From: an uncultured Pelagibacteraceae bacterium
Lineage (GTDB): Bacteria > Pseudomonadota > Alphaproteobacteria > Pelagibacterales > Pelagibacteraceae
Reading direction: 5' to 3'
DNA: 64,000 nucleotides
Assembly (NCBI GenBank): GCA_902599955.1
Contig: CACKHK010000001.1
Location: 62,001-126,000 of the forward strand
Shown here: positions 2,428-51,669 of the stretch, one piece after another
Position numbering within the stretch: position 1 is the first letter of the stretch
Layout of the letters: each line of letters starts with the position of its first letter
Program-made: the position numbers and the translations under genes
Notes under the pieces: model-generated
Databases searched by the model: none
Told to the model about the DNA's origin: nothing
Seen by the model: the letters and a program-made list of their open reading frames with translations, nothing else

Positions 2428-3438
2428 ATGAAAATCAAAAAATTACTTCTATCTGCTGCTGTAATATTTGGATTAACTTCTTTTGGAAGTGTTGCCAACG
2501 CAGCTTGTGGAAATATATCTATTGCTAATATGAACTGGGCTTCTGCAAACTTTATGGCTGAAGTTGACAAGATTATATTAGAAGAGGGATATGGATGTAC
2601 AGTTGAACTTGTGCCAGGTGCAACAATGCCAACATTTACATCTATGCAAGAAAAAGGTGAGCCGGATGTAGCACCAGAATTTTGGGCTAACGCTGCTATC
2701 GTTGCTCTTAATAAGGCTGTTGATGAAGGAAAACTTCATTCAATAAATCTAGCACCAATCACTGGTCTAGGTGAAGGATGGTGGGTACTTCCTGCTACTT
2801 TAGAAAAACATCCAGAACTTACTACTGCTGATGCAATTTTAAAAAGACCTGATTTATTCCCACACCCAGAGGATCCATCAAAAGGTGGATTTCACATATG
2901 CCCTCCAGGATGGAACTGTGAATTAAGTAACAGAAACCATTTTAGAGCATGGGGTATGGAAGAAAAAGGTTGGGCAATTGTAGAAACAGGATCAGCTGCT
3001 GGTCTTGATGGTTCAATTGCTAAAGCTGCTGAAAGAGGAGAAAACTGGTTTGGTTACTACTGGTCTCCAACAGCATTAATTGGTAAATATAATATGCAAG
3101 CTGTAGATATGGGTGAATGGGGCGGCAAAGATAACTGGGATAACTGCTTAGTTAAGCCAGAACAAGAGTGTGCTGATCCAAAAAAATCTTCATGGGTAAA
3201 ATCTGAAGTATTCACAATAGCTACTGATAATTTCAAAAAAACTGCTGGTTCTGATGGCATGAACTATCTTGAGAAAAGAGTTTATCCAGGTCCAGTAATG
3301 AATGGAATGTTAGTTTGGATGGGCGAAAACCAAGCTGAAGGTGCTGATGCTGCAATTGAATTCCTAAAAACACAAGAAGATGTGTGGACTAAATGGGTTT
3401 CAAGTGATGCTGCTTCAAAAATTAAAAAAGCACTTTAA
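2428..3438 (+). CDS. Betaine/choline-type ABC transporter substrate-binding protein (OpuAC family)
   Basis: This is a 336-aa periplasmic binding protein with a clear Sec signal peptide (lysines, hydrophobic core, cleavage after VANA near residue 25). The mature part has the OpuAC-family layout for quaternary amines: an early MNWASANFM segment, a MPTF...PDVAPEFW segment, and many Trp and Tyr residues of the kind that form cation-binding aromatic cages. AGGAGA at 2418-2423 is a strong ribosome-binding site. The next gene is a matching permease, but no ATPase follows. A strong hairpin lies between binding protein and permease, probably favouring expression of the binding protein. The solute is probably glycine betaine, choline or a related methylated compound given the neighbours bhmT and a DmdA-like gene; the exact substrate is not readable from sequence. 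Confidence 0.88.
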   Translation: MKIKKLLLSAAVIFGLTSFGSVANAACGNISIANMNWASANFMAEVDKIILEEGYGCTVELVPGATMPTFTSMQEKGEPDVAPEFWANAAIVALNKAVDEGKLHSINLAPITGLGEGWWVLPATLEKHPELTTADAILKRPDLFPHPEDPSKGGFHICPPGWNCELSNRNHFRAWGMEEKGWAIVETGSAAGLDGSIAKAAERGENWFGYYWSPTALIGKYNMQAVDMGEWGGKDNWDNCLVKPEQECADPKKSSWVKSEVFTIATDNFKKTAGSDGMNYLEKRVYPGPVMNGMLVWMGENQAEGADAAIEFLKTQEDVWTKWVSSDAASKIKKAL

Positions 3439-3454
3439 TATTTAAAATATGATT

Positions 3455-3480
3455 TCGAACCCGTTGAAATACGGGTTCGA
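3455..3480 (+). terminator. Intercistronic hairpin after the binding-protein gene
   Basis: A perfect 9-bp GC-containing stem (TCGAACCCG 3455-3463 with CGGGTTCGA 3472-3480) has an 8-nt loop and is followed by an AT-rich tract. It sits 17 nt after the binding-protein stop and 20 nt before the permease start. It probably acts as a partial terminator or 3' stabiliser that makes binding protein mRNA exceed permease mRNA. Confidence 0.65.
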
Positions 3481-3499
3481 TTAATTTAAAAGAATTTTT

Positions 3500-4384
3500 A
3501 TGGACTTCTTTAATAAAATTCCTGTTATGGACAGAACGGCATTAAGAGAATTAAAGAAGGGAATAGATTTAAGTTTTAAGGATTTTTCAAGAGCTTACGG
3601 TGACGGTATAGAAGGATTTTTTGATCCACTTTTGTATTTTTTAATTTGGTTGGAAAAATTATTAGTAAATAGTCCATGGCCCCTTGTCATTGGGGTATTT
3701 GCTTTATTAGCTTGGATAGGTTCAAGAAGCATTAAACTGGTTATAGGAACAATAGTTTGTTTTATGATTATTGGTTATTTTGGAATGTGGAAAAACTGTA
3801 TGGCAACAGTTGCTATCATTTCTGTATCAACACTAGTTTGTATTGTAGTTGGTATTCCAATTGGTGTGTTAATGTCTAAATCAAGCAGAGCAGAAAAAAC
3901 AATTTTACCTGTTTTGGACATGATGCAAACTATTCCAAGTTTCGTTTACCTTATACCTATAATTATGCTTTTAGGTATTGGAAAAGTACCTGGTTTATTG
4001 GCAGTTTGTATTTATGCTTTACCACCGGTAGTAAGGCTGACAAATCTTGGAATAAGAGAAGTAGATAAAGAAACACTTGAAGCAAGCGAAGCATTTGGTG
4101 CAACTCCAATGCAAAAATTAAAATCTGTGCAAATACCATTGTCGTTACCAACAATTTTTGCTGGAATTAACCAAACAATTATGATGGCTTTAGCTATGGT
4201 GGTTATTGCATCAATGATAGGAGTTAAAGGTCTGGGAGTGCCTATTTTGCAAGCTATTTCTAATCAATATTTAGCACTTGGGATGATGAATGGTTTGGCA
4301 ATAGTAGCTCTAGCAATCATCTTTGACAGAGTTACACAGCAGTATGGTCAAAGAATTCAAAAACACAGAGGTCAGAAAAAGTAA
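3500..4384 (+). CDS. Betaine-type ABC transporter permease (ProW/OpuAB family)
   Basis: This 294-aa inner-membrane protein has a soluble N-terminal stretch of about 55 residues and roughly seven hydrophobic segments. The cytoplasmic coupling loop of binding-protein-dependent permeases is visible as EASEAFGATPMQKLKSVQIP. GIPIGVLMSKS and QTIPSFVYLIPIIMLLGIG are typical of the ProW family. It partners the binding protein upstream. No ATPase gene is adjacent; the only betaine-type ATPase in the window is at 35416-36447 next to a different permease, so ATPase sharing, or an ATPase elsewhere in the genome, is inferred. The product would homodimerise in the membrane. Confidence 0.87.
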   Translation: MDFFNKIPVMDRTALRELKKGIDLSFKDFSRAYGDGIEGFFDPLLYFLIWLEKLLVNSPWPLVIGVFALLAWIGSRSIKLVIGTIVCFMIIGYFGMWKNCMATVAIISVSTLVCIVVGIPIGVLMSKSSRAEKTILPVLDMMQTIPSFVYLIPIIMLLGIGKVPGLLAVCIYALPPVVRLTNLGIREVDKETLEASEAFGATPMQKLKSVQIPLSLPTIFAGINQTIMMALAMVVIASMIGVKGLGVPILQAISNQYLALGMMNGLAIVALAIIFDRVTQQYGQRIQKHRGQKK

Positions 4385-4446
4385 CCCTGACACTTTGATC
4401 TAATATTTTTCTAGACAGTTATTTTAAAATAAATAATTATTAATTA

Positions 4447-5175
4447 ATGAATTTTTCATTAGAAATTGGACCTCACACTGATCTTGATACTTTGCCAAGT
4501 GTGAAAGATGTATATGTCACAATGCTACCTGGAGGTGATTATAAGGAAACTGCTGACAAGTCTGGAGATTTGGTAAAAAAAGGTTTTAACCCAGTTCCTC
4601 ATTTTCCAGCTAGATCAATTAATAGCGAAAGTGAATTAAAAGAGTATGTTTTAAGATGTAAAGATTTAGGTGTAAAACAAGTTCTTGTTATTGGAGGTAG
4701 TCGTGAACCAATTGGAAAATTTGATAGCTCCTATCAGATATTAGAAACAGGATATTTTGATGGGATAAAGATCGGAATTGCTGGACATCCTGAGGGGAGT
4801 CCTGATATATCCGATTCAGATTTAGAAAAAGCTATGATAGATAAAAAGCCTTATGCTGATTATATAGTTACTCAATGGTTACTTGATGCTCAGCCTATCG
4901 TTGATTTTATTTCTAAACAAACGATACCAGTTCATGTTGGGATAACTGGGCCAATGAAAATTTCAAGCTTAATAAAGTTTGCAAATATTGTAGGGGCAAA
5001 AAATTCCATTAACTTTCTTAAATCTAATTTTACTAAGGCATTAGATTTATTGAAACCTAAAGACCCTAATGATCTAATTGGGAAAGTTAAATCACATACT
5101 GATTATTTTCACATTTATACATTCGGCGGCTTGAAGGAAACAAACAAGTGGTTGAAGGAGAATAACTATGTCTAA
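4447..5175 (+). CDS. Methylenetetrahydrofolate reductase-like protein (MetF clan)
   Basis: This 242-aa protein has a MetF-like TIM-barrel pattern: an opening SLEIGPH strand, FNPVPHFPARS, QVLVIGGSREP, KIGIAGHPEGSPD and a later HVGITGPM. Each corresponds to a block seen in bacterial 5,10-methylenetetrahydrofolate reductases (for example 'PHLTC', 'LRGD', 'AGYPE', 'PGIMP'). It is shorter than E. coli MetF (about 296 aa), and the flavin-binding segments are divergent. The stop overlaps the start of the DmdA-like methyltransferase by 8 nt, implying translational coupling. I infer that it interconverts 5-methyl-THF and 5,10-methylene-THF for the downstream enzyme, as in other THF-dependent demethylation modules such as ligM/metF. 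A non-reductase member of the same fold is possible. Confidence 0.7.
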   Translation: MNFSLEIGPHTDLDTLPSVKDVYVTMLPGGDYKETADKSGDLVKKGFNPVPHFPARSINSESELKEYVLRCKDLGVKQVLVIGGSREPIGKFDSSYQILETGYFDGIKIGIAGHPEGSPDISDSDLEKAMIDKKPYADYIVTQWLLDAQPIVDFISKQTIPVHVGITGPMKISSLIKFANIVGAKNSINFLKSNFTKALDLLKPKDPNDLIGKVKSHTDYFHIYTFGGLKETNKWLKENNYV

Positions 5176-6566: not shown

Positions 6567-7112
6567 ATGCTAGCACAATTTCTAGAGATTTTTTTTAAAT
6601 CATTAAAATTAGATAGAAGCTTATACAAAGATAATAAATACTTTGGAGAAGCTGCAATATATTTTGCCGGTCTTGTAATGATACTTGATGGAGTTGCAGG
6701 AGCCGTAGCGGCAAATTCAATAATAAAAACATCAATAGGTATATCTGGTTTGACAGCTTTACTAACATGGTTTGTTTGGGCAATTTTTATTTTTGTAATA
6801 GGAGTAAAAATCTTTCCAGACAAAGGCAGCAGAGTTCCATTTAAAAAAGTATTAATTGCAGTAGGGTACGCTCACGCACCAGGTTTAATAAGATTTTTTG
6901 CAGTTACACCAGACTTAGTTTTGCCTATTATTTTTCTTACACAGTTTTGGATATTTGCTTCTTTAATTATATCTACAAAACAAATATTAAATTTAAAGTC
7001 TAATTTAAAATCTTTTGGAGTAGTGTTTTTATCTTTTCTTATAATTGCTTTTCTCTCAATAACATTCATTATAAATAGAATGAACTCAATCCCAGTCAGC
7101 AATATTAGTTAA
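6567..7112 (+). CDS. Yip1-family integral membrane protein
   Basis: This 181-aa membrane protein has a short amphipathic N-terminus followed by about five hydrophobic segments (around residues 30-55, 58-80, 93-115, 118-135 and 148-168). The layout and the 'GYAHAPGLIRFFAVTPDL' segment fit the Yip1 domain family found in many proteobacteria. The molecular role in bacteria is unknown. It starts 10 nt after a hairpin that follows the DmdA-like gene, and its stop overlaps by 4 nt the end of the convergent 55-aa gene. No catalytic residues are evident. Confidence 0.65.
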   Translation: MLAQFLEIFFKSLKLDRSLYKDNKYFGEAAIYFAGLVMILDGVAGAVAANSIIKTSIGISGLTALLTWFVWAIFIFVIGVKIFPDKGSRVPFKKVLIAVGYAHAPGLIRFFAVTPDLVLPIIFLTQFWIFASLIISTKQILNLKSNLKSFGVVFLSFLIIAFLSITFIINRMNSIPVSNIS

Positions 7113-7276
7113 AGAGGAAATACAGTCTTTGAAGTTCTGCAAGATTTACACAACTTATATCCTGTCATAATTAAATTTTGCGTAACGCTTTCATCTTCTT
7201 TATGACATTCTTCACAAATCTTGTCTAAATCTTTTAAATTTTTCTCTAAAAAATCATCTTTTATTTTATCAGTCAT
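7109..7276 (-). CDS. 55-aa CxxC zinc-ribbon-like protein
   Basis: Translation from ATG at 7276 gives 55 residues ending at a TAA at 7109-7111. Two Cys pairs are present: CEEC at residues 21-24 and CKSC at residues 43-46, spaced as in small zinc ribbons. The rest is charged, rich in Lys, Asp and Glu. The start overlaps the end of the DUF3726-like gene by 8 nt (ATGACTGA), which argues that it is a translated last member of that operon. I do not recognise a named family. The function is unknown; metal binding, or protein or nucleic-acid contacts, are possible. Confidence 0.65.
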   Translation of the reverse strand: MTDKIKDDFLEKNLKDLDKICEECHKEDESVTQNLIMTGYKLCKSCRTSKTVFPL

Positions 7277-7877
7277 TATCTGTTAAACCAGCTCCAGCAG
7301 TTCTTGATTTAGACTCCTCGCTTTCTTCAACATAAGTTTTAATTGAAAGTTTATGCATTTCTAACCAATCATCCTCGGAGAAGTTATTTTTATTATCTAA
7401 AAATTTAATATTTATTTTGTCTGATTTTTCTAAAATATCTCCACTTAAATAATTAGAATAAATAGATTCATTAAAATTAAACAAAAACTCTTTATTGTCC
7501 ATTTTTAAGAATATTCTTTTACCGATAATTTCTGACGCCCTACTCAAAAAAGATAAAAATATGAGAGGAAAAGCTATTTTATTAATTTCAATTTCATTAA
7601 ATTTTAAAATTACAGGTGATTGATCATAAAAATTTAACCCACAAAGTATAGGACAATAATATCCTTTTGCTGTATTTGAAGGTGAAATTTCTCCAATATT
7701 TTCAAAGTTGCTAATATTATAAATTTTAAAGTATTGGTTAAGATTTTTAAGTCCTGGCAAACCAAATATTTCAAGTAATCTTATATTTTTTCCAACTTCC
7801 TCAGAAATACCCCATGAAAAACCTTTAGCCTTGGTTGCTCTTTTAATTGTAGTTTCTATTTCACTAAAACTTCTCAT
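7269..7877 (-). CDS. DUF3726-like protein
   Basis: This 202-aa protein opens with SEIETTIKRATKAKGFSWGISEEVGKNIRLLE. I recall that pattern (small helix, then 'KA.KG.G..WG.AEE.GKA.R.L') as the signature of DUF3726, an alphaproteobacterial family without assigned function. There is no signal peptide or membrane span. It starts 6 nt after the stop of the 550-aa gene and overlaps the downstream zinc-ribbon gene, so it is the third of four coupled genes headed by an atypical M19 dipeptidase. The family assignment is from memory of the motif, not from a search. Confidence 0.65.
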   Translation of the reverse strand: MRSFSEIETTIKRATKAKGFSWGISEEVGKNIRLLEIFGLPGLKNLNQYFKIYNISNFENIGEISPSNTAKGYYCPILCGLNFYDQSPVILKFNEIEINKIAFPLIFLSFLSRASEIIGKRIFLKMDNKEFLFNFNESIYSNYLSGDILEKSDKINIKFLDNKNNFSEDDWLEMHKLSIKTYVEESEESKSRTAGAGLTDND

Positions 7878-7883
7878 ACAAAA

Positions 7884-9536
7884 TTAATTATACATCCAAT
7901 AATTATCAAAATTTGAGAGTTCTGATGGCAAAGGTGCGCCCTGAAACATGCAAATACGTAACCACTTGTCTGATCTAGGATCAAATTTTATTGCACCAAA
8001 AAAAGACAACTTAAGCCTTAACATATCAATAGGCATTAATTTAGAACCAATTGTATTATCTTGAATTTCTGCATACGGACATTTTTCAGAAATAAATACT
8101 CTTCTTACTACATGTCTTAAATGATTATTATCCAATAAAAATTTTCCAATTTTGGAACTATTTTTTTTTGTGAATACTATGTCATAAAGCTTTTTGATAT
8201 CTCTTGCGATAGCAAGTGGTTGTTCTAAATTTGATCCATCATCGATATACCTATCCCCTATTCTTGGCTCCTCTTTATTTTTTGAAATAAACCAGAAATT
8301 TTTATTATTTTCCTCCTTACTAAAATCAATTTTCAAAATTTCAGAGTAATTCTTTTCAATTATATTTCTTAAATCCTCGATAGTTCTTTCAACAGGAATA
8401 TTAAAGTATTTTTCTTCATTTGAACTCATTTTAGATACTAAAGGATCTACTATTTTATCATATGGCTCCATCATCATAGAAACAATATACTCAATACACT
8501 CATCATTTAAATTCTCCTCAGCCCACATATAAATATTATTAAATTGATAAGAATTTTCAAATTTAAACTCATCTTTCATAAATTTTATAAATTTTTTTAA
8601 ATCAAATATTAAATTTTTAATTTTTTCTTTTTGAAATTCACTGTCAGTATGCCAGCTGGAGATATTTTTTAGTGATTTAATTAAACACTGATAAAAAATA
8701 TCTAAATCATTTTTAGAAACTTTTTCTATTTCTCTTATTTTTTTTAAAACTGTTTCTCTAGCAGTTATCCAGTTATTAAGTAAAGTGGGATGGTTTACTA
8801 TAAATGGTGCCATGCCAAGTCCTGTAGAATTTCCTATACCTAAAGTTCTGCAGATATTGTTATCTAGTTCAACAGCGTTTTTAGGACTTATACTTTTTGC
8901 AATATGGTTAACTTGGTCAAATGTAAATTGTCTAACTAAATAAACCAACATCATCTCTAGTCTAAATGGCCCACAAATTTCATCCCTATTTTTAATCCTA
9001 AATCTATCAGCTAAACCAAATTTACCAGATCCATAGACTGCAGTAGTTCTATAAAGATAACCAACTTTAGATATAAATTCTTTATCTGGTTGTTGACCTT
9101 TCGATAAATTTTCAACTACATGATTAAACAACCTGACAGATTTATTAGCTCTTGATAGGGTTAGTTCTTTGTAAGATAGCCTTCCGACCTCTTGTTTAGG
9201 GACATTATTACTAAGTCTATCAACATCTTCTTTTGTTGGAATTCCATCAAATAGAGTAAATGCAGCATCCCATTTAGTGGCAATAACTCTATCTGATCTT
9301 TCATCATCCTTAATTTCATTTGCAAAACAAATTAAAGAATAAGTTTTTTTTTCTTTAGTGAAAGAATAAATTGCTCTTCCAAATCCTTTGTCATTTAATT
9401 GAAATAGGTCTCTACTATATTTCCAATCTTTAAACTCTTTTAAGAAAGATCTCAAAAAAGAGAGTTTTGATTGGTGAAAAGAACCAAGTTTAGACAACTT
9501 CATCAGGAATTTAGGGTCTCTTAACTTAATTTCCAT
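7884..9536 (-). CDS. Large conserved hypothetical protein (550 aa)
   Basis: I do not recognise a named domain in this 550-aa soluble protein. It is rich in charged residues with no signal peptide or membrane span. Possibly conserved blocks are EVGRLSYKELTLSRANKSVRLFNHV, a segment YRTTAVYGSGKFGLADR around residue 165, FRLEMMLVYLVRQFTFDQV, GNSTGLGMAPFIVNHP, and a C-terminal stretch with LRHVVRRVF followed by EKCPYAE. Such motif-like islands suggest an enzyme rather than a structural protein. Its ATG overlaps the dipeptidase stop by one base (TAATG), and a DUF3726-like gene follows after 6 nt. I infer that these proteins act in one pathway or complex. Confidence 0.75.
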   Translation of the reverse strand: MEIKLRDPKFLMKLSKLGSFHQSKLSFLRSFLKEFKDWKYSRDLFQLNDKGFGRAIYSFTKEKKTYSLICFANEIKDDERSDRVIATKWDAAFTLFDGIPTKEDVDRLSNNVPKQEVGRLSYKELTLSRANKSVRLFNHVVENLSKGQQPDKEFISKVGYLYRTTAVYGSGKFGLADRFRIKNRDEICGPFRLEMMLVYLVRQFTFDQVNHIAKSISPKNAVELDNNICRTLGIGNSTGLGMAPFIVNHPTLLNNWITARETVLKKIREIEKVSKNDLDIFYQCLIKSLKNISSWHTDSEFQKEKIKNLIFDLKKFIKFMKDEFKFENSYQFNNIYMWAEENLNDECIEYIVSMMMEPYDKIVDPLVSKMSSNEEKYFNIPVERTIEDLRNIIEKNYSEILKIDFSKEENNKNFWFISKNKEEPRIGDRYIDDGSNLEQPLAIARDIKKLYDIVFTKKNSSKIGKFLLDNNHLRHVVRRVFISEKCPYAEIQDNTIGSKLMPIDMLRLKLSFFGAIKFDPRSDKWLRICMFQGAPLPSELSNFDNYWMYN

Positions 9537-10504
9537 TAATTAATTCCTTTATAAAAATTAAACCAATTGTTTCCTAAAATATCATTTACTTCATTTTCAT
9601 TAAAACCTATTTTTTTCAATCCTTTTTCTAAATTACTAAAACCTCTTGCATCAATAAACCATTCAGGTTGATTAGGAAATTCTGGTTTACTTTTACTTCC
9701 CTCGCCATAATTTTTTGTTTTACTCCACGTTCCATTCCTCATCCACTCAACGATACTATCTGGTTGATTCAAACAAAGGTCAGAACCAATGCCTATATTT
9801 TTTACTCCCATTATTTCAACAGTTTTTGCAACCATTTCACAAAAGCTATCTAATTTACAATTCGTTCCATCTTTTAGATGATGTGCATACAAAGAAAGCC
9901 CAAGCATTCCTCCACTATTTGATAAATGTTTTAAAAGTGTTTCAGATTTATTTCTTAGAGCGCTATGCCAAAAAGATGGATTAGCATGAGTAATCGCAAT
10001 TGGTTTTTCGCTAATGTCTATAGCATCTAATGTACTTTTTTCACCTGAATGCGACATATCAATAACTATTCCAATTCGATTCATTTCTTTTATAGCTTCT
10101 CTTCCAAAATTTGTCACACCAGAATCGTTTTTTTCATAACATCCTGTAGCTAAAAGAGATTGGTTATTGTAAGTAAGTTGCATAAATCTGCATCCATGAT
10201 GATGAACTTTCTCAATTAAGTTAATATCATCCTCAATTGGAGAACAGTTTTGAAAACCAAAAAATATTGCAGTTTTATTTTCTGACTTAGCCTTTATAAT
10301 ATCTTCAAAAGTTTTTCCCAAAAATATTAGATCTGAATTTTCATTAAATAAGTTTTCCCATTCTTTCAATTTAATTAAAAATTCATCATAGTCTTCATGA
10401 TATACCACTGTTGCATGTACTGCGTTCAATCCAGCATCTCTGTTGATTTTAAAAATATCTCTTGACCAGTTGCAATATTGAAGATTATCAATTCGATAAT
10501 TCAT
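9536..10504 (-). CDS. M19 renal-dipeptidase-like protein with altered metal site
   Basis: This 322-aa protein follows the membrane dipeptidase (M19) barrel: FMQLTYNNQSLLATG, GREAIKEMNRIGIVIDMSHS, PIAITHANPS and GIGSDLCLN all match family blocks, and the two later metal His residues (DMSH, ITHAN) are present. The N-terminal HxD zinc ligands of classical members (in DGHND) are replaced here by DNLQY, and the bridging Glu (usually in a GxEG-like motif) reads GFQN. A standard two-zinc dipeptidase centre is therefore not expected. It heads the four-gene minus-strand operon and is divergent from purE. A dipeptide is thus an uncertain substrate; a hydrolase acting on another amide or lactone is possible. 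Confidence 0.8.
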   Translation of the reverse strand: MNYRIDNLQYCNWSRDIFKINRDAGLNAVHATVVYHEDYDEFLIKLKEWENLFNENSDLIFLGKTFEDIIKAKSENKTAIFFGFQNCSPIEDDINLIEKVHHHGCRFMQLTYNNQSLLATGCYEKNDSGVTNFGREAIKEMNRIGIVIDMSHSGEKSTLDAIDISEKPIAITHANPSFWHSALRNKSETLLKHLSNSGGMLGLSLYAHHLKDGTNCKLDSFCEMVAKTVEIMGVKNIGIGSDLCLNQPDSIVEWMRNGTWSKTKNYGEGSKSKPEFPNQPEWFIDARGFSNLEKGLKKIGFNENEVNDILGNNWFNFYKGIN

Positions 10505-15327: not shown

Positions 15328-15915
15328 CTAGATACATTTATAGCCATATTCTAGTGAAGCATCAGTTATTGAGTGGTACATAGATTCCCCAAAACTACGA
15401 AGTGAAAAAATTCTAGCTTTTTCAGGTTCATCTTCAACCATATCAACTAAAAAAGATATTCCGTTATATGATGAGTTGATGCACATATTTTTACTAAATA
15501 TATTGAAATTAAACGGACAACCTTTTTTTAAAACCTCTTTAACATTAGGTCCTTCTATTTCTATAATTGCTTTTGAGTGTGAGAGATCTGTAACAGCAAA
15601 GTCGCTATCATTAAAATTTTTTAAAATTTCACTAAAAAGTTCTTTTTTTTTAGAAACAACAAGCCAATTGTTTGGTGAATTCCACAATATTCTTAAATTT
15701 TCATTTGCAACAACTTTTTGTGCTTCATTAACAAATTGCAAATTATTAAGTTTTATATCATTTATTTTAATTGAGGAATTTTTGTACTGAACTATTTGAA
15801 CAATTAATAAATTTTTTAACTCAGAAATTTTCAATAATTCATTTTCAGTTTTATTTTCAAAATTTCCATAAGAACCCTCTGAATGAATGTTCTGCAAAGG
15901 TGATATCATTGTCAT
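15328..15915 (-). CDS. soxG: Sarcosine oxidase gamma subunit (or N-methylglutamate dehydrogenase subunit)
   Basis: This 195-aa protein has the weakly conserved SoxG pattern: a GNFENKTEN opening, the WNSPNNWLVVS block, DLSHSKAIIEIEGPNVKEVLKKGCPFN and a C-terminal RSFGESMYHSITDASLEYGY. SoxG is a GcvT-like fold subunit of heterotetrameric sarcosine oxidase, without catalysis of its own. It overlaps the soxA stop by 4 nt and is last in the soxB-D-A-G order typical of the operon. MgdD of N-methylglutamate dehydrogenase is homologous, so substrate identity rests on the whole complex. Confidence 0.85.
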   Translation of the reverse strand: MTMISPLQNIHSEGSYGNFENKTENELLKISELKNLLIVQIVQYKNSSIKINDIKLNNLQFVNEAQKVVANENLRILWNSPNNWLVVSKKKELFSEILKNFNDSDFAVTDLSHSKAIIEIEGPNVKEVLKKGCPFNFNIFSKNMCINSSYNGISFLVDMVEDEPEKARIFSLRSFGESMYHSITDASLEYGYKCI

Positions 15916-18908
15916 GATCTAACTCTCTTTCCTTCAGGATCTACATAATGAGAAGAGACAATCTCTACAGGAATTGTTTTATTTTTTAAAGGTGACATAG
16001 CAAAGAGTTTTTGTCCTATCATATTTTTACCATCTTTAATTATTGCTAAAGAAAATGGGTTATCATATTCAACACTCCAACATGAAGCCGAAACATGCCC
16101 TAATTTTGGATTAGGTAATTTTGCTTTTGGATCTTTTACTATGTAAGATCCTTCAGGTATACTTGTAGTTTTATCAATTGGAACTATGCCAACTAATTTT
16201 TCTCTATCCGTAGATGTAAAGGCAGATCTGTTTAAAGATCTTTTGCCTATAAAATCTTTTTTCTTACTAACTAGGCCTTCTAAAGATGCATCGTAAGGGA
16301 TTGTTCTTCCATCTAATTCAGATCCTGCAACATGGCCCATTTCTATTCTGAGAGTTGATAAAGCTTCAGTTCCATATGGCTGTATTTGAAATTCTTGTCC
16401 AACTTCCATGATTTTTTCCCACATGAAATATCCGTTATCGGACTCAACGTTAATCTCATATGCTAACTCACCAGAAAACGAAATTCTGTAAATTTTTGCA
16501 GGAACTCCAAATAAATCAGCTTCTTTATAACCCATAAATGGCAAACCTTCGTTTGAAACATCTAAATCGGGGAATAATTTCATTAATAATTTTCTAGAAT
16601 TAGGTCCTGCAATTGCTGCACCTGCCCATTGCTCTGTGGTTGATACAACGTTTACATTTAACTCTGGCCACACTAGTTGTAAATAGTATTCTAAATGAGA
16701 TAGAACATTTGCTGCTTGAGCTGTTGTAGTTGTCATGTGATAATGATTTTCGGAAATCCTTGTTGTTGTTCCGTCATCCATAACAATTCCATCTTCTCTT
16801 AACATTACGCCGTATCTTGCTTTACCCACTGGAAGTTTAAGCCAAGCATTAGTATAAACTCTATTCAAAAACTCTGCTGCATCTGGTCCTTTAACATCTA
16901 TTTTACCTAATGTTGTAACATCACATACACCTACATTTTGTCTTACATTTTTTGCCTCTCTTTTTGATGCTTCAAATAACCCTTCATTTCCTTGCTTGTA
17001 ATATCTTGGTCTTAACCAAACCCCTGCATCAACAAATACTGCATTATTTTTTTCATGCCATGAATGCATAGGTGATTTTCTTGTTGGTTTAGAATGTTTG
17101 CCAACTTCTCTTCCTACAATTGCTCCAATTGAAACTGGGGTATAAGGAGGTCTAAAAGTAGTATGTCCTACTTGTGGAACAACTTTATTCTCAATATCAG
17201 AGACTAATTGTAATCCATTTAAATTACTCGTTTTTCCTTGGTCCGTAGCCATACCAAGCGTTGTATATCTTTTTACATGCTCGATAGACCTGAAACCTTC
17301 TCTTAGAGCTAGTTCAATATCAGAAACCGCTACGTCATTCTGAAAATCTAAAAATCTTTTATAAGATTTACCTTTTGGTAAAGGAACACACCAAAATTTA
17401 TCATGATCCGTTGATTTTTTTTCTACTACTGTCGGTACTGAAACTTTATTATTTTTTTCAGTTATTTTATTTGAAACGTCAAAACCTTTGTCAAAAGCAT
17501 CTTTAATTGTTTCCTCTAATGTAAATATTCCATTTGCTGACCCGATTGTATTTTCTTGTTGTTTAGATTTATCTGGTACAAATGCATCAATTTTTTCGTT
17601 AAATTTAGATTTGTTTCCTGACTGTGATGCTAAATGAATAGATGGTGTCCAAAAACCTGATACACAGATACAATCACATTTTATATTTTCTATGTTAAAT
17701 AATTCTTTTTTATCGTCAGATATTTTAGCGATATCTGCTGATTTAACTTTTTTATAGCCTTTTGCAGCAACAACTACATAGGAGAACTTAATTTCAATAT
17801 TTAAATTTTTTGCCTCAGTTATAATATCTGAAGAAGGATTACTTCTTGTATCCAATATGATTGGATTTACTCCGTTTTTTTTAAATTCAATTGCAGTTTC
17901 ATAACCACTATCATTGTTTGTGAAAATTAAAGGTTTTTTTCCAACTAATACCCCATAAACTTTCATATACTCTTTGGCAGCTGACGATAACATAACGCCA
18001 GGAGTATCATTGTTTCCAAAAACTAAAGGTCTTTCAATTGAACCTGACGAAATCAATACTTCATTTGCTCTTATGTACCACAAACGTTGTTTAGGGAGAT
18101 ATTTTTGAGTTTTTGGCAAGTGATCGCTAATACGCTCTGACATTACTAACATATTGTGATCATAGTAACCAAAAACTTGCGATCTATTTTTTACTGTAAC
18201 ATTAGGCATGGACTTTAGTTCTGCTATAATTTTTTCTGTCCACTCGACACCTGTTTGATTTCCTATATTTACATCACTTGTTAATAAGCTACCTCCAAAT
18301 CTTGGTTTATCCTCAGCCAATATTACTCGGGCTCCATTCTTGGCAGCAGCATAAGCACTTGCTAAACCTGAAGGCCCAGATCCTGTTATTAATAAATCAC
18401 AATACTCATATTTATGCTCATATCTTTCTTTATCATGTTTGATAGAGGCTTCTCCAAATCCAGCCGCCATTCGAATAAAAGGTTCATATATTTTATACCA
18501 AAAGCTAGGAGGCCACATAAATGTTTTGTAATAGAAACCAGCTGGAAAAAACATTTTTAAGAAATTGTTTATCGCACCAATGTCAAAATTTACACTAGGC
18601 CAACAATTAACACTCTTAACCTCTAGCCCTTCAAAAATTTCTTGTTCTGTTGCTCTTATATTTGGATCTCTCTCATTATTTCTATCTAACTGTAGAATTG
18701 CATAGGGCTCATCAACGCCAACTCCAAAAAAACCCCTAGGTCTGTGATATTTAAAACTTCTACCTACTAAATGAACTCCATTCGCTATTAAGGCAGATGC
18801 GATAGTATCTCCCTCGAAACCAAAATATTTTTTGCCATTAAATTTAAACGAGATTTTTTTTTCTCTATTTACCATTCCAACATTATCTAATCTAAAATCC
18901 TGGGACAT
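15912..18908 (-). CDS. soxA: Sarcosine oxidase alpha subunit (or MgdC-type N-methylglutamate dehydrogenase)
   Basis: At 998 aa this is full length for SoxA. The N-terminal 100 residues form a ferredoxin-like domain (FEGDTIASALIANGV, RSFKYHRPRGFFG), and a nucleotide-binding Rossmann domain begins at LLITGSGPSGLASA around residue 175. The last 370 residues are a GcvT-like THF domain (GVCDVTTLGKIDVKGPDA, then LPFMGYKEAD and SFSGELAYEINVE). In the holoenzyme, demethylation releases C1 units captured by THF as 5,10-methylene-THF. It lies within soxBDAG, overlapping both neighbours, with fhs divergent nearby. N-methylglutamate dehydrogenase has the same architecture, and the mgs genes at 44754-47934 make that alternative real. 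Confidence 0.92.
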   Translation of the reverse strand: MSQDFRLDNVGMVNREKKISFKFNGKKYFGFEGDTIASALIANGVHLVGRSFKYHRPRGFFGVGVDEPYAILQLDRNNERDPNIRATEQEIFEGLEVKSVNCWPSVNFDIGAINNFLKMFFPAGFYYKTFMWPPSFWYKIYEPFIRMAAGFGEASIKHDKERYEHKYEYCDLLITGSGPSGLASAYAAAKNGARVILAEDKPRFGGSLLTSDVNIGNQTGVEWTEKIIAELKSMPNVTVKNRSQVFGYYDHNMLVMSERISDHLPKTQKYLPKQRLWYIRANEVLISSGSIERPLVFGNNDTPGVMLSSAAKEYMKVYGVLVGKKPLIFTNNDSGYETAIEFKKNGVNPIILDTRSNPSSDIITEAKNLNIEIKFSYVVVAAKGYKKVKSADIAKISDDKKELFNIENIKCDCICVSGFWTPSIHLASQSGNKSKFNEKIDAFVPDKSKQQENTIGSANGIFTLEETIKDAFDKGFDVSNKITEKNNKVSVPTVVEKKSTDHDKFWCVPLPKGKSYKRFLDFQNDVAVSDIELALREGFRSIEHVKRYTTLGMATDQGKTSNLNGLQLVSDIENKVVPQVGHTTFRPPYTPVSIGAIVGREVGKHSKPTRKSPMHSWHEKNNAVFVDAGVWLRPRYYKQGNEGLFEASKREAKNVRQNVGVCDVTTLGKIDVKGPDAAEFLNRVYTNAWLKLPVGKARYGVMLREDGIVMDDGTTTRISENHYHMTTTTAQAANVLSHLEYYLQLVWPELNVNVVSTTEQWAGAAIAGPNSRKLLMKLFPDLDVSNEGLPFMGYKEADLFGVPAKIYRISFSGELAYEINVESDNGYFMWEKIMEVGQEFQIQPYGTEALSTLRIEMGHVAGSELDGRTIPYDASLEGLVSKKKDFIGKRSLNRSAFTSTDREKLVGIVPIDKTTSIPEGSYIVKDPKAKLPNPKLGHVSASCWSVEYDNPFSLAIIKDGKNMIGQKLFAMSPLKNKTIPVEIVSSHYVDPEGKRVRS

Positions 18909-19177
18909 TATTCTATTGCTTCGTTTGCTTTATAAGTTTTAAAAATTTCGTGAGTTGATGTATCTCTTTCAACTTTAATCCATTGTCTACATCCAGAAAT
19001 ATGATGCCATAATTCTAAATGTTTTCCTCTTGGACTTTTTCTTAAGTATACAAAATTATCCCACTCTTGATCGCTTATTTCTTTATTAAGTTCAGGACGC
19101 TTTACTGTTGCATCTCCGCCATAAGCAAATTCATTCTGAGATCTAAGTCCACAATGTGGACAGTTGATATATAACAT
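18908..19177 (-). CDS. soxD: Sarcosine oxidase delta subunit
   Basis: This small zinc-binding subunit has 89 aa, the normal length. The N-terminal CPHCG (Cys6, Cys9) and the later LWHHISGCRQW (His58 or His59, Cys63) provide the expected zinc ligands. YGGDATVKRPE, FVYLRKSPRGKHLELWHH and TYKANE are standard SoxD blocks. It sits between soxB and soxA with a 0 nt gap and a 1-nt overlap respectively. Confidence 0.94.
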   Translation of the reverse strand: MLYINCPHCGLRSQNEFAYGGDATVKRPELNKEISDQEWDNFVYLRKSPRGKHLELWHHISGCRQWIKVERDTSTHEIFKTYKANEAIE

Positions 19178-20434
19178 TTATGATATCCAGGTTTTAGTTC
19201 CTAGGCCTTTTTCATCAATTAAATTTCCAGTGCTAAATCTGTTGAGGCTGTAACCGGCATTTAAATCATGAACTCTGTCTTGAGCAATTGTATGTGCAAA
19301 AGTCCACCCGGAAGCTGGGGTTGCCTTAAATCCACCATAGCACCAACCACAATTTAAATATAATCCATTAATGTGCGTTTTATCAATAATTGGCGATCCA
19401 TCCATGGACATATCCATTATTCCACCCCAAGTTCTTAACATTTTTAATTTGCTAAGAAATGGAAACATCGCAATCCCTTCTGTTAAAACATGTTGAAGAG
19501 TTGGTAAGTTTCCTCTTTGAGAATAACTATTATATCCATCTAAGTCTCCACCCATAACCATTTCCCCTTTATCTGATTGGCTACAATAAAAATGTCCTGC
19601 ACCAAATGTAACAACATGATCAAGCAAAGGTTTAATAGGCTCTGAAACACATGCTTGAAGCAAATGAGTTTCAATTGGTAAAGTCATATTTAACATTTCT
19701 GCCAAAATATTTGTACTTCCTGCAACACATAAACCAACTTTCTTTGCTTTAATATCTCCTTTAGAAGTTCTTACTCCAAGAATTTTTCCATTTGAGACAT
19801 CAAATCCCGTAACTTCACAATTTTGAATTATGTCAACACCCATAGAGTCTGCTTGTCTCGCATAACCCCAGGCAACAGCATCGTGTCTTGCTGTTCCAGC
19901 GCTTGGTTGCATCAAGCCTCCAAAAATTGGAAACCTTACATTGTCAGAAAAGTCTGCCATTGGAATTAACTTTTGAACTTCTTCTCTATTTAACAAAACC
20001 GCATCAATGCCGTTCAAACGCATCGAATTTCCCCTTCTCGAATAGGCATTCATTTGTGCATCTGAGTGGGCAAGATTAATTATTCCTCTTGGGGAAAACA
20101 TTACATTGTAATTTAAATCTTGGCTCATCTTTCTCCAAAGATCCATACCAAATTCACTAAACAAACCATTCTCATCATGCATGTAATTAGACCTAATAAT
20201 TGTAGTATTCCTTCCAACGTTTCCTCCACCTATCCAACCTTTTTCAATGATAGCAACATTTGTAATGTTGTGTTCTTTTGCTAAGTAATATGCGGTTGCT
20301 AATCCATGGCCTCCCCCGCCAATGATAATTACATCGTATTCTTTTTTAGGAGTTGGATCTTTCCATGCAACTTCCCAATTTTGATGATCTGAGAATGCAT
20401 TTTTTATTAGACTAAAAACTGAGTATTTTTGCAT
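19178..20434 (-). CDS. soxB: Sarcosine oxidase beta subunit (or MgdA-type subunit)
   Basis: This 418-aa FAD- and FMN-binding flavoprotein of the DAO family is the amine-oxidising subunit. The FAD-binding motif IIIGGGGHGLATA is near residue 37, IEKGWIGGGNVGRNTTIIRSNY contains the conserved flavin-contacting segment, and the C-terminal block reads LYLNCGWCYGGFKATPASGW. The length (about 405-420) fits SoxB. It is first in soxBDAG, divergent from fhs across 128 nt. That gap contains an AT-rich TATATATATA tract (about 20479-20488). It could act on sarcosine from betaine breakdown or N-methylglutamate from methylamine. Confidence 0.92.
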   Translation of the reverse strand: MQKYSVFSLIKNAFSDHQNWEVAWKDPTPKKEYDVIIIGGGGHGLATAYYLAKEHNITNVAIIEKGWIGGGNVGRNTTIIRSNYMHDENGLFSEFGMDLWRKMSQDLNYNVMFSPRGIINLAHSDAQMNAYSRRGNSMRLNGIDAVLLNREEVQKLIPMADFSDNVRFPIFGGLMQPSAGTARHDAVAWGYARQADSMGVDIIQNCEVTGFDVSNGKILGVRTSKGDIKAKKVGLCVAGSTNILAEMLNMTLPIETHLLQACVSEPIKPLLDHVVTFGAGHFYCSQSDKGEMVMGGDLDGYNSYSQRGNLPTLQHVLTEGIAMFPFLSKLKMLRTWGGIMDMSMDGSPIIDKTHINGLYLNCGWCYGGFKATPASGWTFAHTIAQDRVHDLNAGYSLNRFSTGNLIDEKGLGTKTWIS

Positions 20435-41771: not shown

Positions 41772-41865
41772 TGGTTTATAACTTTAAGGTTGTATAACTT
41801 TTTATTTCTAAATTTTATATATAAAAAAAATTATATATTTAACCTCTTCCAAAAAATAATGTTTC

Positions 41866-43194: not shown

Positions 43195-43260
43195 TTTATC
43201 TGAGTAGACAGATGTTTTATTTTCAGTTAACTTTTTGGACTAAAAATTCTTAGGGGGAAT

Positions 43261-44730: not shown

Positions 44731-44753
44731 GAAAAATTATAGGAGATAAAACA

Positions 44754-45698: not shown

Positions 45699-46540
45699 AA
45701 ACAACTGAGAAAAAAACTAAAGCTCAATCTATGGGACTTCACACTGAGGTTCTTACAGGGAAAACACAACAAAAGTTTTTTAATCCAGATGAAGCAGAAA
45801 ACTTTTATTATTGGGGAACATACGATGTAGATTTTAATAAAAGAACTGAGCTTGATGTAAATGATATGGATTGCAAAGAGGCAAATAAAAAAATTGATGA
45901 ATTGATGAGTCAGGGTTACGGAACAATAGTAATTAAAAATCCACAAGGAAAACATAGTTTGGGTGTTGGAATTTTAAATAAATTAAACTTAATTTTTGAG
46001 GGAAGTTTGGGTTATTTTGGAGTTGGTTCTATAGATGGTCCTACGGTAAGAGTTAATGGAAGAGTTGGATGGTCGTGTGCAGAAAATATGATGGCTGGAA
46101 AAGTTGTAATAGAAAAAAATGCAGGATCGTGTTTTGGGGCAGCAGTAAGAGGTGGAGATTTAATTTGCAAAGGAAGTGTTGGTGCAAGAACAGGTATTGA
46201 CCAAAAAGGTGGCACAATAATAATTGGTGGTGACGCTGGCGCTTTTACAGGATTTATGATGCAAAGAGGAAGAATAGTAGTTTTAGGTAATGTAGGTATA
46301 AACCTTGGAGACTCTATGTATGATGGAACAATCTATGTTGGGGGAAAAATTGGATCATATGGAAGTGATGCGATTGAGTCACCTATGACAAAAAGTGATA
46401 TAGATTGGTTAAAAAGAAAACTTAAAGTCGCTGAAATTGGCGAAAATTTTGATGTTTCTAAAATGACTAAAGTCGTTGCGGGTAAAAAACTTTGGAATTA
46501 TGACGCTTTAGAACCAACTGAGAAAAAAGGAGCTATATAA
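45686..46540 (+). CDS. mgsB: GltB C-terminal-domain-like subunit (MgsB/GlxC type)
   Basis: This 284-aa protein corresponds to the GXGXG beta-helix domain at the C-terminus of glutamate synthase alpha. Repeats such as GYFGVGSIDGPTVRVNGRVG, GSCFGAAVRGGDLICKGSVG, KGGTIIIGGDAGAFTGFMMQRG and YDGTIYVGGKIGSYG show the pattern. It overlaps mgsA by 13 nt and mgsC by 1 nt. As a stand-alone subunit it forms N-methylglutamate synthase with MgsA and MgsC in methylamine users. In rhizobia the same trio is called GlxBCD. Confidence 0.88.
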   Translation: MANLKTTEKKTKAQSMGLHTEVLTGKTQQKFFNPDEAENFYYWGTYDVDFNKRTELDVNDMDCKEANKKIDELMSQGYGTIVIKNPQGKHSLGVGILNKLNLIFEGSLGYFGVGSIDGPTVRVNGRVGWSCAENMMAGKVVIEKNAGSCFGAAVRGGDLICKGSVGARTGIDQKGGTIIIGGDAGAFTGFMMQRGRIVVLGNVGINLGDSMYDGTIYVGGKIGSYGSDAIESPMTKSDIDWLKRKLKVAEIGENFDVSKMTKVVAGKKLWNYDALEPTEKKGAI

Positions 46541-47934
46541 TGGCAAAAAAGAAAAATGGAAAATCAAATGGTCATTCTAATGGCAATGGTCAAAGTGAAT
46601 TTTCAAAAAGAAACAAAAGTTTATTAGGATATAATTCAATATTTACTCCAGAAGTAATCGACGACATACATATAAAAGCGCAATTAGGTAGATACAGAAT
46701 GCGTGGTATGGCGCTAATGAAAAAAATTCCTACATTTGATGATCTAGTATTTTTACCTGGTACACTTACAAGATTTGTAATCGAGGGTTACAGAGAAAAA
46801 TGTGAAACTAAAACTGTTATAGGACCAAGATGTGAAAATCCAGTTGAACTTGATATTCCTGTTTATATCACTGGAATGAGTTTTGGCGCTTTATCTTATG
46901 AAGCTAAGACTGCATTAGCTAGAGGTGCTACGATGGCAGGAAGTGCAACGTGTTCTGGTGAAGGTGGAATGATTCCAGATGAAAGAAGATATTCTGAAAA
47001 ATGGTATTACCAATGTATTCAATCTAGATATGGCTTTAATCCACATCATGCACAACTCGCAGATGGAATAGAAGTATTTATTGGACAAGGTCAAAAAGTT
47101 GGAATGGGTGGTCACTTAATGGGTCAAAAAGTTACTGACCAAGTAGCAGAAATGAGATCATTGCCTGCAGGTATTGATCAAAGATCTCCAGCTAGACACC
47201 CCGATTGGTTAGGTCCAGACGATTTAGCACTAAAAGTTCAAGAACTTAGAGAACTAACAAAAAATAAAGTTCCAATTCAATTGAAACTTGGAGCAGCAAA
47301 AGTTTATGATGACGTTCGTATGGCAGCAAAATGTGATCCTGACTCAATTTATCTAGATGGTATGGAAGGATCAACAGGTGCTGGCCCTCACATAGCAGCT
47401 GCAAACACAGGAATTCCCGGGATAGCCGCTATTAGAGAAGCAAGAAGAGCAATCGATGATGTTGGTAAAACTGGAAAAGTGACACTGATATACGCAGGTG
47501 GTGTGAGAGATGGTGCTGACATGGCTAAAGCATTAGCATTAGGTGCGGATGCAATTGCGATAGGAACTGGAGCAATGATAGCTTTAAATTGTAATAAAGA
47601 AATTCCTGAGTCAAATTTTGAAAAAGAAATGGGTGTTCCAGCAGGCCACTGTTATCACTGTCACACAGGACGTTGTCCAGTTGGTGTTGCAACACAAGAT
47701 CCTAAACTTAGAAAAAGATTAAATCCTGATGATGCAGCTCTAAGAGTTTATAATTACTTACATACAATGACTTTAGAGGCTCAATTATTAGCTAGAGCAT
47801 GTGGTAAAACTAATATTCATTCATTAGAACCTGAGGACTTAGCAGCTTTAACAATGGAAGCTTCTGCTTTGGCAAAGGTCCCACTTTCTGGAACAAATCA
47901 TACAGTTGGAGTCGACGATTTTCATAAAATATAA
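46540..47934 (+). CDS. mgsC: FMN-binding glutamate synthase domain subunit (MgsC/GlxD type)
   Basis: This 464-aa protein is the catalytic FMN domain of glutamate synthase. YITGMSFGALSYEAKTALARGA, CSGEGGMIPDERRY, GAKPG-like QGQKVGMGGHLMGQKV, IQLKLGAAKVYDDVRMAAK and DGMEGSTGAGPHIAA are canonical blocks. Three Cys form a 3Fe-4S-like site in GHCYHCHTGRCPVGVATQDP. An unusual 25-residue N-terminal leader is rich in Lys, Gly, Ser and Asn. In N-methylglutamate synthase it condenses methylamine and 2-oxoglutarate to N-methylglutamate. The same protein could make other N-alkylglutamates. Confidence 0.88.
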   Translation: MAKKKNGKSNGHSNGNGQSEFSKRNKSLLGYNSIFTPEVIDDIHIKAQLGRYRMRGMALMKKIPTFDDLVFLPGTLTRFVIEGYREKCETKTVIGPRCENPVELDIPVYITGMSFGALSYEAKTALARGATMAGSATCSGEGGMIPDERRYSEKWYYQCIQSRYGFNPHHAQLADGIEVFIGQGQKVGMGGHLMGQKVTDQVAEMRSLPAGIDQRSPARHPDWLGPDDLALKVQELRELTKNKVPIQLKLGAAKVYDDVRMAAKCDPDSIYLDGMEGSTGAGPHIAAANTGIPGIAAIREARRAIDDVGKTGKVTLIYAGGVRDGADMAKALALGADAIAIGTGAMIALNCNKEIPESNFEKEMGVPAGHCYHCHTGRCPVGVATQDPKLRKRLNPDDAALRVYNYLHTMTLEAQLLARACGKTNIHSLEPEDLAALTMEASALAKVPLSGTNHTVGVDDFHKI

Positions 47935-47936
47935 TT

Positions 47937-48344: not shown

Positions 48345-48478
48345 AATCAGTAAAAATTTATATATACTTAAAGTTGTCTTTAAATAAATAAGCCACGTTT
48401 TTATTGTTTTATTTAAGATTGATCAATCTATTCCATTAATTAATAATTTATTGATTTGTTTAAACAATTGGAGGTTAA

Positions 48479-49879: not shown

Positions 49880-49890
49880 AGGAGGATAAT

Positions 49891-50343: not shown

Positions 50344-51669
50344 GTGTCAAAAAACTTATATAAAATTGCAAAAGCAAAAAAAATAAAATACTTTCTAATA
50401 AGTTTTGTTGATTTGTTTGGAATTTTAAGATCAAAATTAGTACCGACTAGAGCTATAAAAGAGATGCAAACAAATGGGGCTGGGTTTGCAGGTTTTGCTG
50501 CTTGGCTTGACATGTCTCCAGCGGATTCTGATATGTTTGCAATTCCAGATCCAAATAGTTTAATTCAACTACCTTGGAATAAAGAAGTAGGATGGTTAGC
50601 GTCTGATTTATGGATGGATGGCAAACCAGTAGATGCATCTCCGAGAATAATGCTAAAAAAACAAATAAAATCACTTCAAAATGAAGGTTTAATTATGAAA
50701 TCTGGTGTGGAATGTGAGTATTTTTTAATCTCCTCTGACGGTAGCACAATTGCAGATACAAAAGATACTCAATCTAAACCATGTTACGATCAATCTTCGC
50801 TAATGAGAAGATATGAATTAATTAAGGAGATATGCGACTGCATGATCGAAATGGGATGGAACCCTTATCAAAATGACCATGAAGATGCTAATGGTCAGTT
50901 TGAAATGAATTGGGATTACTCAGACTGCCTAACTACAGCAGATAGGCATACTTTTTTTAAATTTATGGTTAAAACCATTTCTGAAAAACATGGACTTAGA
51001 GCAACTTTTATGCCCAAGCCTTTTGAAAATCTAACTGGTAACGGATGTCATACGCACATTTCTATTTGGGATAAAAGAAAAAATAAATTTTTGGATAAAA
51101 ACGATAAACTTGGACTTAGTGAACTAGCTTACAATTTTTTAGGTGGTATAATTAAAAATGCAGGCGCTTTATCGGCATTTTTTAATCCTACTTTAAATAG
51201 TTATAGGAGGATAAATGCACCCCCTACTAAATCAGGAGCAACTTGGTCTCCAAGTAGCATCTCTTATACGGGAAATAACCGAACACACATGATAAGAGTT
51301 CCTGACCCTGGAAGGTTTGAATTAAGACTTATGGATGGATCAGCTAATCCATATTTGGTACAAGCTGGAATTCTAGCAGCAGGTATAAACGGGATCAGAA
51401 AAAAAATAAATCCAGGTAAACCATTATTCTGTAACATGTACACCGACTATAAAAAATATCCAAATCTAAAAAAACTACCTAATACTTTAGAAGAGTCATT
51501 AGAAATATTAAATTTTAATACAGTATTAAAAAGTGCTTTTGGCAAAAATGTTTTGAACAGTTATATAAAATTAAAAAAATCTGAAATCGAAAGTTTTAAA
51601 TTAAAAGAAAATTTTGACAAATTAAAACCTATTACAAAATGGGAAAGATCTAATACCTTAGATTGTTAA
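50344..51669 (+). CDS. gmaS: Type III glutamine synthetase-like ligase (GmaS/GlnT candidate)
   Basis: This 441-aa GS-family enzyme starts at a GTG (50344). The blocks are SGVECEYFL (120-128), DHEDANGQFEMNW (178-190), TGNGCHTHISIW (231-242, His236 and His238 both kept), NSYRRIN and PDPGRFELRLMDGSANPYL. Length and layout fit the GlnT/GmaS group of about 435 aa, in which GmaS makes gamma-glutamylmethylamide from methylamine and glutamate. It is followed 3 nt later by a diaminopropionate ammonia-lyase-like gene. Since a second GS-like gene sits at 43261-44730, the true GmaS could be either. Confidence 0.8.
   Translation: MSKNLYKIAKAKKIKYFLISFVDLFGILRSKLVPTRAIKEMQTNGAGFAGFAAWLDMSPADSDMFAIPDPNSLIQLPWNKEVGWLASDLWMDGKPVDASPRIMLKKQIKSLQNEGLIMKSGVECEYFLISSDGSTIADTKDTQSKPCYDQSSLMRRYELIKEICDCMIEMGWNPYQNDHEDANGQFEMNWDYSDCLTTADRHTFFKFMVKTISEKHGLRATFMPKPFENLTGNGCHTHISIWDKRKNKFLDKNDKLGLSELAYNFLGGIIKNAGALSAFFNPTLNSYRRINAPPTKSGATWSPSSISYTGNNRTHMIRVPDPGRFELRLMDGSANPYLVQAGILAAGINGIRKKINPGKPLFCNMYTDYKKYPNLKKLPNTLEESLEILNFNTVLKSAFGKNVLNSYIKLKKSEIESFKLKENFDKLKPITKWERSNTLDC

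Follow-up and report, generated by a model that had tools for sequence, protein, structure and literature searches.

Trigonelline (N-methylnicotinate) is degraded by TgnABCD, and the operon for homarine (N-methylpicolinate) described in 2026 reportedly comprises five catabolic genes and a regulator. A citing sentence in PMC13390433, which refers to Ferrer-Gonzalez et al. 2026 (Nat Microbiol 11:1531-1546), states that N-methylglutamate dehydrogenase (Mgd) takes part in homarine catabolism; another excerpt of that article places mgdABCD of DSS-3 beside the AraC-type regulator gene tmaR, an excerpt of PMC10041152 names SPO1586 mgdC, and rapid uptake of homarine by R. pomeroyi is described in an excerpt of PMC12817926. 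Here we analyzed a 64,000-nt stretch of a genome of the SAR11 group (contig CACKHK010000001.1, hereafter the window), in which four tightly packed genes occupy the minus strand from 10504 to 7109. Among named loci, those nearest to it come from uncultured Pelagibacteraceae and share 99% identity. The operon most likely encodes the catabolism of an N-methylated betaine-like compound, with homarine the best candidate, to N-methylglutamate, and would represent, within SAR11, the homarine pathway reported in 2026; from the gene context, we put the probability of this reading at about 0.6. The four genes are as follows:

9536..10504, minus strand: M19 (membrane dipeptidase)-like protein of 322 amino acids; Pfam M19 228.8 bits; metal site partly lost
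7884..9536, minus strand: 550-amino-acid protein of no described family; open reading frame with no Pfam or NCBIfam match
7269..7877, minus strand: DUF3726 protein of 202 amino acids; Pfam DUF3726 73.3 bits (cut-off 22.1)
7109..7276, minus strand: 55-amino-acid CxxC...CxxC zinc-ribbon protein; recognised by its four-cysteine spacing

An earlier note, made from the DNA letters, had listed these open reading frames, and all four were recovered with the same coordinates, strand and junction sizes. Read 5′ to 3′ in the operon, the first two genes overlap by 1 nt, the second and third are 6 nt apart, and the last two overlap by 8 nt; judging by this spacing alone, the genes would be translated as a unit. 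A promoter and terminator scan gave scores no better than those of shuffled sequence, and no Rfam family reached its gathering score anywhere in the window.

The scheme that we propose below resembles TgnABCD in its ring cleavage, semialdehyde oxidation and amide removal. It differs from it in that no flavin monooxygenase was recognised among the annotated neighbours, where the Tgn proteins themselves were not searched for, and in that the proposed product is N-methylglutamate. The number of genes in the operons found outside SAR11 equals the five plus regulator reported for the homarine operon; in the window operon, the zinc ribbon is added, and the aldehyde dehydrogenase and Ldh genes lie elsewhere. 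A tie to the homarine pathway of environmental bacteria is Mgd itself, which is involved there according to the one citing sentence (PMC13390433), as the window operon is linked to genes of the mgd clade.

Each of the 80 named SAR11 loci contains the M19, 550-amino-acid and DUF3726 genes, and the complete set of four is present in 78, with at most 250 bases remaining after DUF3726 in the other two. Among a further 30 loci of the same genus, the first three genes were present in 30 and all four in 26. Since the first three genes co-occur in all 80 and all 30 loci, the arrangement is not a matter of chance, and a chance neighbourhood was rejected, the gene set being kept across the SAR11 loci and 60 wider loci. 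The latter were taken from 58 genomes picked for having the 550-amino-acid gene, two of which contributed two loci each. These 58 are a subset of the genomes with a match, one locus (L184) is only 4 kb long, and the 60 loci also served to build the neighbour profiles. In 53/60 loci, DUF3726 is at most 100 bases away from the 550-amino-acid gene and shares its strand. Within 8 kb, 55 loci have an M19 gene (52 of them with it on the same strand), 32 an aldehyde dehydrogenase gene and 22 an Ldh_2 gene. Genes for LysR, a BCCT transporter, RidA, and Pot-like or ProXW-like ATP-binding cassette (ABC) transporters also recur nearby.

The conserved system is thus real and reaches beyond SAR11, and the lack of co-conservation that the earlier note had named as fatal to its proposal did not appear. 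Its four-gene unit holds for the M19, 550-amino-acid and DUF3726 genes, which are widely conserved, but not for the zinc ribbon, which was found only in close SAR11 relatives. This protein carries two CxxC pairs, and the same four-cysteine spacing occurs in the five arrangements listed, which cover 34 of 44 distinct sequences; among loci L155-L230 it was found only in L194, a genome of the same genus, and it was not found in the loci of another family of the SAR11 order. Pfam gave weak matches to the 55-amino-acid protein, none above cut-off.

Four named records, Phaeobacter inhibens DSM 17395, Ruegeria TM1040, Mesorhizobium sp. 131-2-1 and Aminobacter sp. SR38, hold LysR, aldehyde dehydrogenase, M19, 550-amino-acid and DUF3726 genes together, and three of the four also hold Ldh, which was not found in the stretch around the operon of P. 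inhibens. In the window's SAR11 family, the aldehyde dehydrogenase and Ldh genes sit outside the operon; in L188, a locus from one genome of the window's order, a single stretch brings together the mgd-type genes and M19-550-DUF3726 with genes for Ldh, an aldehyde dehydrogenase and an ABC transporter. Where they can be named, the transporters adjoining the unit are mostly of betaine or polyamine types (BCCT, glycine-betaine ABC, OpuAC/ProW, Pot-like). Exceptions to this betaine picture are a branched-chain amino acid type transporter set in Mesorhizobium, an upstream ABC set of unstated type (two ATPases) with an amidohydrolase in Phaeobacter, and an M24 creatinase/prolidase-family gene beside DUF3726 in L161.

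Counting the window's own genome, 68 of 101 near relatives have the 550-amino-acid gene, as do 57 of the 387 genomes sampled from the class and 19 of the 199 sampled from the phylum, 7 of the last outside the class. Between lineages, the operon proteins match at the 40-60% level. It also occurs in 168 named plasmid records, 122 of them from Sinorhizobium or Phaeobacter; no further relatives were found in viral contigs.

Co-occurrence was examined in 22 SAR11-family genomes picked by presence or absence of the 550-amino-acid gene and by completeness. The M19 gene was found in 12/12 genomes with the 550-amino-acid gene and in 0/10 without it (Fisher 1.5e-6), a strong Ldh_2 match (E 1e-55 or better) in 10/12 and 1/10 (Fisher 0.0019), and an aldehyde dehydrogenase match of at least 320 bits in 8/12 and 0/10 (Fisher 0.0017). 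These Fisher values overstate the case, because the genomes are related and the Ldh_2 and aldehyde dehydrogenase thresholds were set after the lists had been viewed.

About 5 kb from the operon, the window holds a sarcosine-oxidase-like set of four genes (20434-15328) in the order beta, delta, alpha, gamma, as in MgdABCD, and further along are two genes that may belong to the same route:

19178..20434, minus strand: beta subunit, MgdA-like; TIGR01373 676 bits, cut-off 529
18908..19177, minus strand: delta subunit, MgdB-like; TIGR01374 112.6 bits, just under the cut-off of 116.5
15912..18908, minus strand: alpha subunit, MgdC-like; TIGR01372 1307 bits, cut-off 1164; placed in trees
15328..15915, minus strand: gamma subunit, MgdD-like; TIGR01375 68.4 bits, under the cut-off of 143.95
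50344..51669, plus strand: type III glutamine synthetase, GmaS-type; TIGR03105 618.4 bits, cut-off 469.6
46540..47934, plus strand: glutamate-synthase-like protein, possibly MgsC; NF008730 partial match of 132.8 bits, far under cut-off

We take the TIGR03105 glutamine synthetase to be GmaS, acting in the N-methylglutamate route. When 35 alpha-subunit rows were placed in a tree, in which the G123 row was misread and sits on an extreme branch, 7 operon-adjacent, 4 gmaS-adjacent and 6 other rows formed one group with support of 98/99, apart from two sarcosine-oxidase references, which stand next to serine ammonia-lyase or purU. A wider tree of 51 rows recovered the group with 24 rows and a Shimodaira-Hasegawa-like approximate likelihood ratio test (SH-aLRT) value of 99; four rows with short matches (G381b, G443b, G127b, G123a) were omitted from it, as were additional copies or fragments from G357, G521, G362 and G648. 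The window alpha subunit falls with those linked to gmaS and not with those of sarcosine oxidase, and a plain sarcosine oxidase was rejected by both trees as the identity of these genes. The window complex would therefore fall, by its sequence, in the N-methylglutamate dehydrogenase clade, with the corresponding predicted activity. A glutamine-synthetase gene from L201 was rejected as a guide to mgs/mgd on plasmids, as it led in 4/4 regions examined to another family, beside N-formylglutamate amidohydrolase.

An alpha subunit of the mgd-clade group is present in 20 of the 28 operon genomes. In 6 of these 20 (G000, G012, G074, G100, G235, G381), it lies at most 7 kb from the 550-amino-acid gene, as does an mgd-type subunit in Ruegeria TM1040; operon-to-subunit distances (G231 and others) are those of the named copy and need not hold for further copies. 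Ruegeria TM1040 also has an AraC-type gene between the sox-like genes and the operon, a candidate for TmaR. Together with the conservation, this linkage supports the suggestion of the earlier note that the genes form a conserved alphaproteobacterial pathway tied to one-carbon and nitrogen metabolism.

The 322-amino-acid protein matches the curated M19 model PF01244 at 228.8 bits (cut-off 26). The canonical binuclear zinc ligands of M19 enzymes are an N-terminal HxD, a bridging Glu and two His; by visual inspection, the HxD site corresponds to positions 8 and 10. The HxD pair and the bridging Glu were found in 0/51 aligned sequences of the subtype. Six positions (D6, L8, Q85, H152, H173, D242) are each kept in at least 50 of the 51, with Gln at position 85 and the retained His152, His173 and Asp242 in 51/51, so that the binuclear ligand set is incomplete although both later His remain. 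With HxD and Glu replaced, the protein is therefore a member of the M19 superfamily and not a canonical dipeptidase; the missing metal ligands had been remarked on before, and three of the canonical ligands are replaced in all 51 sequences. Its closest PDB match, 2i5g, which we take to be a Pseudomonas amidohydrolase, is likewise an M19 protein with HxD and Glu lost. An M19 subtype with three lost metal ligands appears to be a new observation, and the protein would suit an amidohydrolase or deformylase step.

For the DUF3726 protein, the best of five models had a predicted local distance difference test (pLDDT) score of 65.7 and a predicted template modelling (pTM) score of 0.60, the other four having pLDDT of 40-43. 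Fold comparison of this model gave Z from 7.4 to 5.6 for ranks 1-15 and 5.1 for the next row, and the 15 top PDB rows are, judging by their titles, all type-2 malate/lactate dehydrogenases (Ldh_2, PF02615); piperideine-2-carboxylate reductase 1wtj (PF02615) has this type of fold. The best Foldseek E was 0.014. Because Z is below 8, the fold match alone is suggestive, and it agrees with the Pfam Ldh_2 matches (2 of 30 DUF3726 members match PF02615) and with hhalign, which gave DUF3726 against Ldh_2 a probability of 43.9% over 66 columns and seven other pairs at most 0.7%. At 202 amino acids against 313-361 in the matched Ldh_2 chains, the protein lacks a large part and is not a full-length enzyme of this family. 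It thus looks like a shrunken relative of the Ldh_2 dehydrogenases, a relationship that is new here; no literature match to DUF3726 was found. It is also the probable partner of the 550-amino-acid protein, to which it is adjacent or, in Mesorhizobium, fused: Mesorhizobium sp. 131-2-1 has a natural fusion of the 550-amino-acid part with DUF3726, of 814 amino acids by coordinates (L217 9956-12400).

The 550-amino-acid protein had been said to match no family, and this stands: it had no match in Pfam or NCBIfam up to E 1, nor in the PDB as a single sequence up to E 5, and by sequence no characterised unrelated enzyme family claimed it. A PDB profile search with a diverse alignment of the family gave a best E of 0.0023, to V-ATPase subunit C at positions 257-406, which we read as chance; Pfam on 45 relatives gave scattered weak matches (best E 0.018), none credible. 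The AlphaFold model, built from 31 SAR11 sequences with 77-99% identity to the protein, was poor (pLDDT 49.9, pTM 0.32) and gives no fold conclusion. Across 45 aligned sequences, eleven arginines are among the invariant residues, but neither Cys nor His is (H249 is at or above 90%), which speaks against a heme or metal site shared by the family. Of the best 40 rows of plasmid matches, 39 are named hypothetical protein and one (Mesorhizobium) DUF3726 protein. A divergent branch, with about 24-35% identity and some partial members, occurs in rhizobia and other genomes (L173, L174, L175, L176, L177, L218, L220); M19 lies nearby in 4/5 of L173-L177 and also in L218 and L220, and DUF3726 was not recognised in L173-L177. 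This branch probably uses another substrate.

Redox partners, betaine transporters and the mgd-clade complex point to the catabolism of an N-methylated betaine. Judging by the two structures, turning homarine into N-methylglutamate would require the ring to be opened, one carbon to be lost, an aldehyde to be oxidised and an imine to be reduced, and the conserved genes offer a candidate for each. From the observed gene content, conservation, linkage, co-occurrence and mgd clade, we infer a substrate, activities and an order of steps. The 550-amino-acid protein, probably in a complex with DUF3726, would open the pyridinium ring; an aldehyde dehydrogenase would oxidise the resulting semialdehyde; the M19-like protein would strip the N-formyl or similar amide carbon; and the Ldh_2 reductase, presumably DpkA-type, would turn the N-methyl imine into N-methylglutamate. 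Lastly, demethylation of N-methylglutamate by the Mgd-type complex would yield glutamate, with folate receiving the methyl carbon. The ring-opening role is assigned to the 550-amino-acid protein by elimination, since the other conserved genes supply the remaining steps and it is left, with DUF3726, for the ring.

Several observations weigh against this reading. The substrate was assigned from gene context, as was the likeness to the published homarine pathway. The 550-amino-acid protein has no recognised oxygenase or flavin domain, so that its ring-opening role depends on the argument by elimination given above. Within 8 kb, just 32/60 loci have the aldehyde dehydrogenase and 22/60 the Ldh gene, some loci being cut by contig ends, and the window's own genome, 71% complete, gives only a weak Ldh_2 match. 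No mgd-clade subunit appears in the tree for 8 of the 28 operon genomes (G061, G062, G316, G127, G521, G357, G622, G543), of which G127, G357 and G521 have further copies that were dropped or unused; for G622 and G543, the best matches (E 5.7e-45 and 8.2e-34) fall far short of those given by full-length copies. The placement of group member G362, which sits on a long branch, is uncertain, and G521 has a sarcosine-type copy 20 kb from its operon.

The same kind of pathway might act on another N-methylated or quaternary substrate (N-methylproline/stachydrine, trigonelline or a carnitine-like betaine) and yield N-methylglutamate or a related amino acid. The operon-adjacent transporters are generic betaine types that vary by lineage, eight of 28 operon genomes show no mgd-clade subunit in the tree, and the divergent 550-amino-acid group, mostly with M19 nearby, stands beside other transporters in rhizobia, so that the chemistry may serve several substrates. 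We nevertheless consider such a substrate unlikely for the window operon, as no Rieske, GMC or flavin demethylase for these compounds was found among the annotated conserved neighbours and the mgd link favours N-methylglutamate as the product. It is more improbable still that the operon is an accessory module of a methylamine or trimethylamine N-oxide (TMAO) route, with the mgd link merely reflecting that route. We kept this idea because the window carries TMAO demethylase, GmaS-type and glutamate-synthase-like genes; a GmaS-type gene also lies about 2 kb from the 550-amino-acid gene in G062 and 11-12 kb from it in G074 and G100, and a trimethylamine methyltransferase family gene 7 kb upstream of the Mesorhizobium operon. 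However, 13 of the 28 operon genomes have no GmaS above the curated cut-off, in G125, G312, G623 and G648 the gmaS-linked mgd copy either sits on a different contig from the operon or is separated from the operon by over 190 kb, and neither TMAO demethylase nor GmaS is annotated within the stretch shown of the four named records.

The amide or peptide turnover that the earlier note proposed around the M19 dipeptidase found no support, and we regard it as highly improbable. The M19 Pfam match is clear, and the M24 gene of L161 and the Phaeobacter ABC set with two ATPases and amidohydrolase would suit it, but these neighbours are single cases, the whole M19 subfamily has other residues in place of HxD and the bridging Glu, and the recurring partners are redox enzymes (aldehyde dehydrogenase, Ldh_2), mostly betaine-type transporters and the mgd-clade complex.

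The homarine-type pathway itself is probably not new, given the 2026 report that the operon fits, and the earlier claim of an undescribed system survives for the 550-amino-acid protein, which has no described family and whose chemistry is probably still new. Among the matches listed, judged by titles and abstract starts, no paper on homarine catabolism genes beyond the citing one was found, and searches on trigonelline and PA5396 gave nothing usable. That the protein founds a new class opening the N-methylpyridinium ring, with a shrunken Ldh_2-derived DUF3726 subunit and a rhizobial branch acting on other substrates, is a tentative and rather doubtful extension. Were homarine catabolism confirmed, some of the ocean's most numerous bacteria would have a dedicated route for an abundant algal betaine, whose central step would fall to a protein family mostly labelled hypothetical in annotated records; DUF3726 would gain a likely structural identity, and the ring-opening question would narrow to three proteins.

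Other genes of the window touch on related metabolism. A methylamine gene island (39082-54232) holds TMAO demethylase, GmaS-type, glutamate-synthase-like and ammonium transporter genes; the TMAO demethylase scores 1103 bits against a cut-off of 1100, and a second glutamine-synthetase-like gene is under its cut-off. Nearer the operon is a transporter pair:

2428-3438, plus strand: OpuAC binding protein of a betaine-type ABC transporter
3500-4384, plus strand: ProW-like permease of a betaine-type ABC transporter

In L195 and L196, members of the window's OpuAC/ProW clusters are found immediately upstream of the operon, and the window pair (2428..4384) may be linked to the operon. It opens a run of genes (2428-6526) that continues with a weakly MTHFR-like gene and a DmdA/GcvT-like gene, the latter at 239.7 bits under the cut-off of 410 for dimethylsulfoniopropionate demethylase; the run is possibly another folate-linked demethylation module. 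Finally, a small Asp/Arg beta-hydroxylase-like protein (cluster c17) is encoded near the operon in L188 (14070-14699) and five other loci, all of the window's order, the group in which alone the cluster was seen. The L188 protein scores 31.1 bits (cut-off 22.6), and such an oxygenase-like protein would fit a ring-oxidation role.

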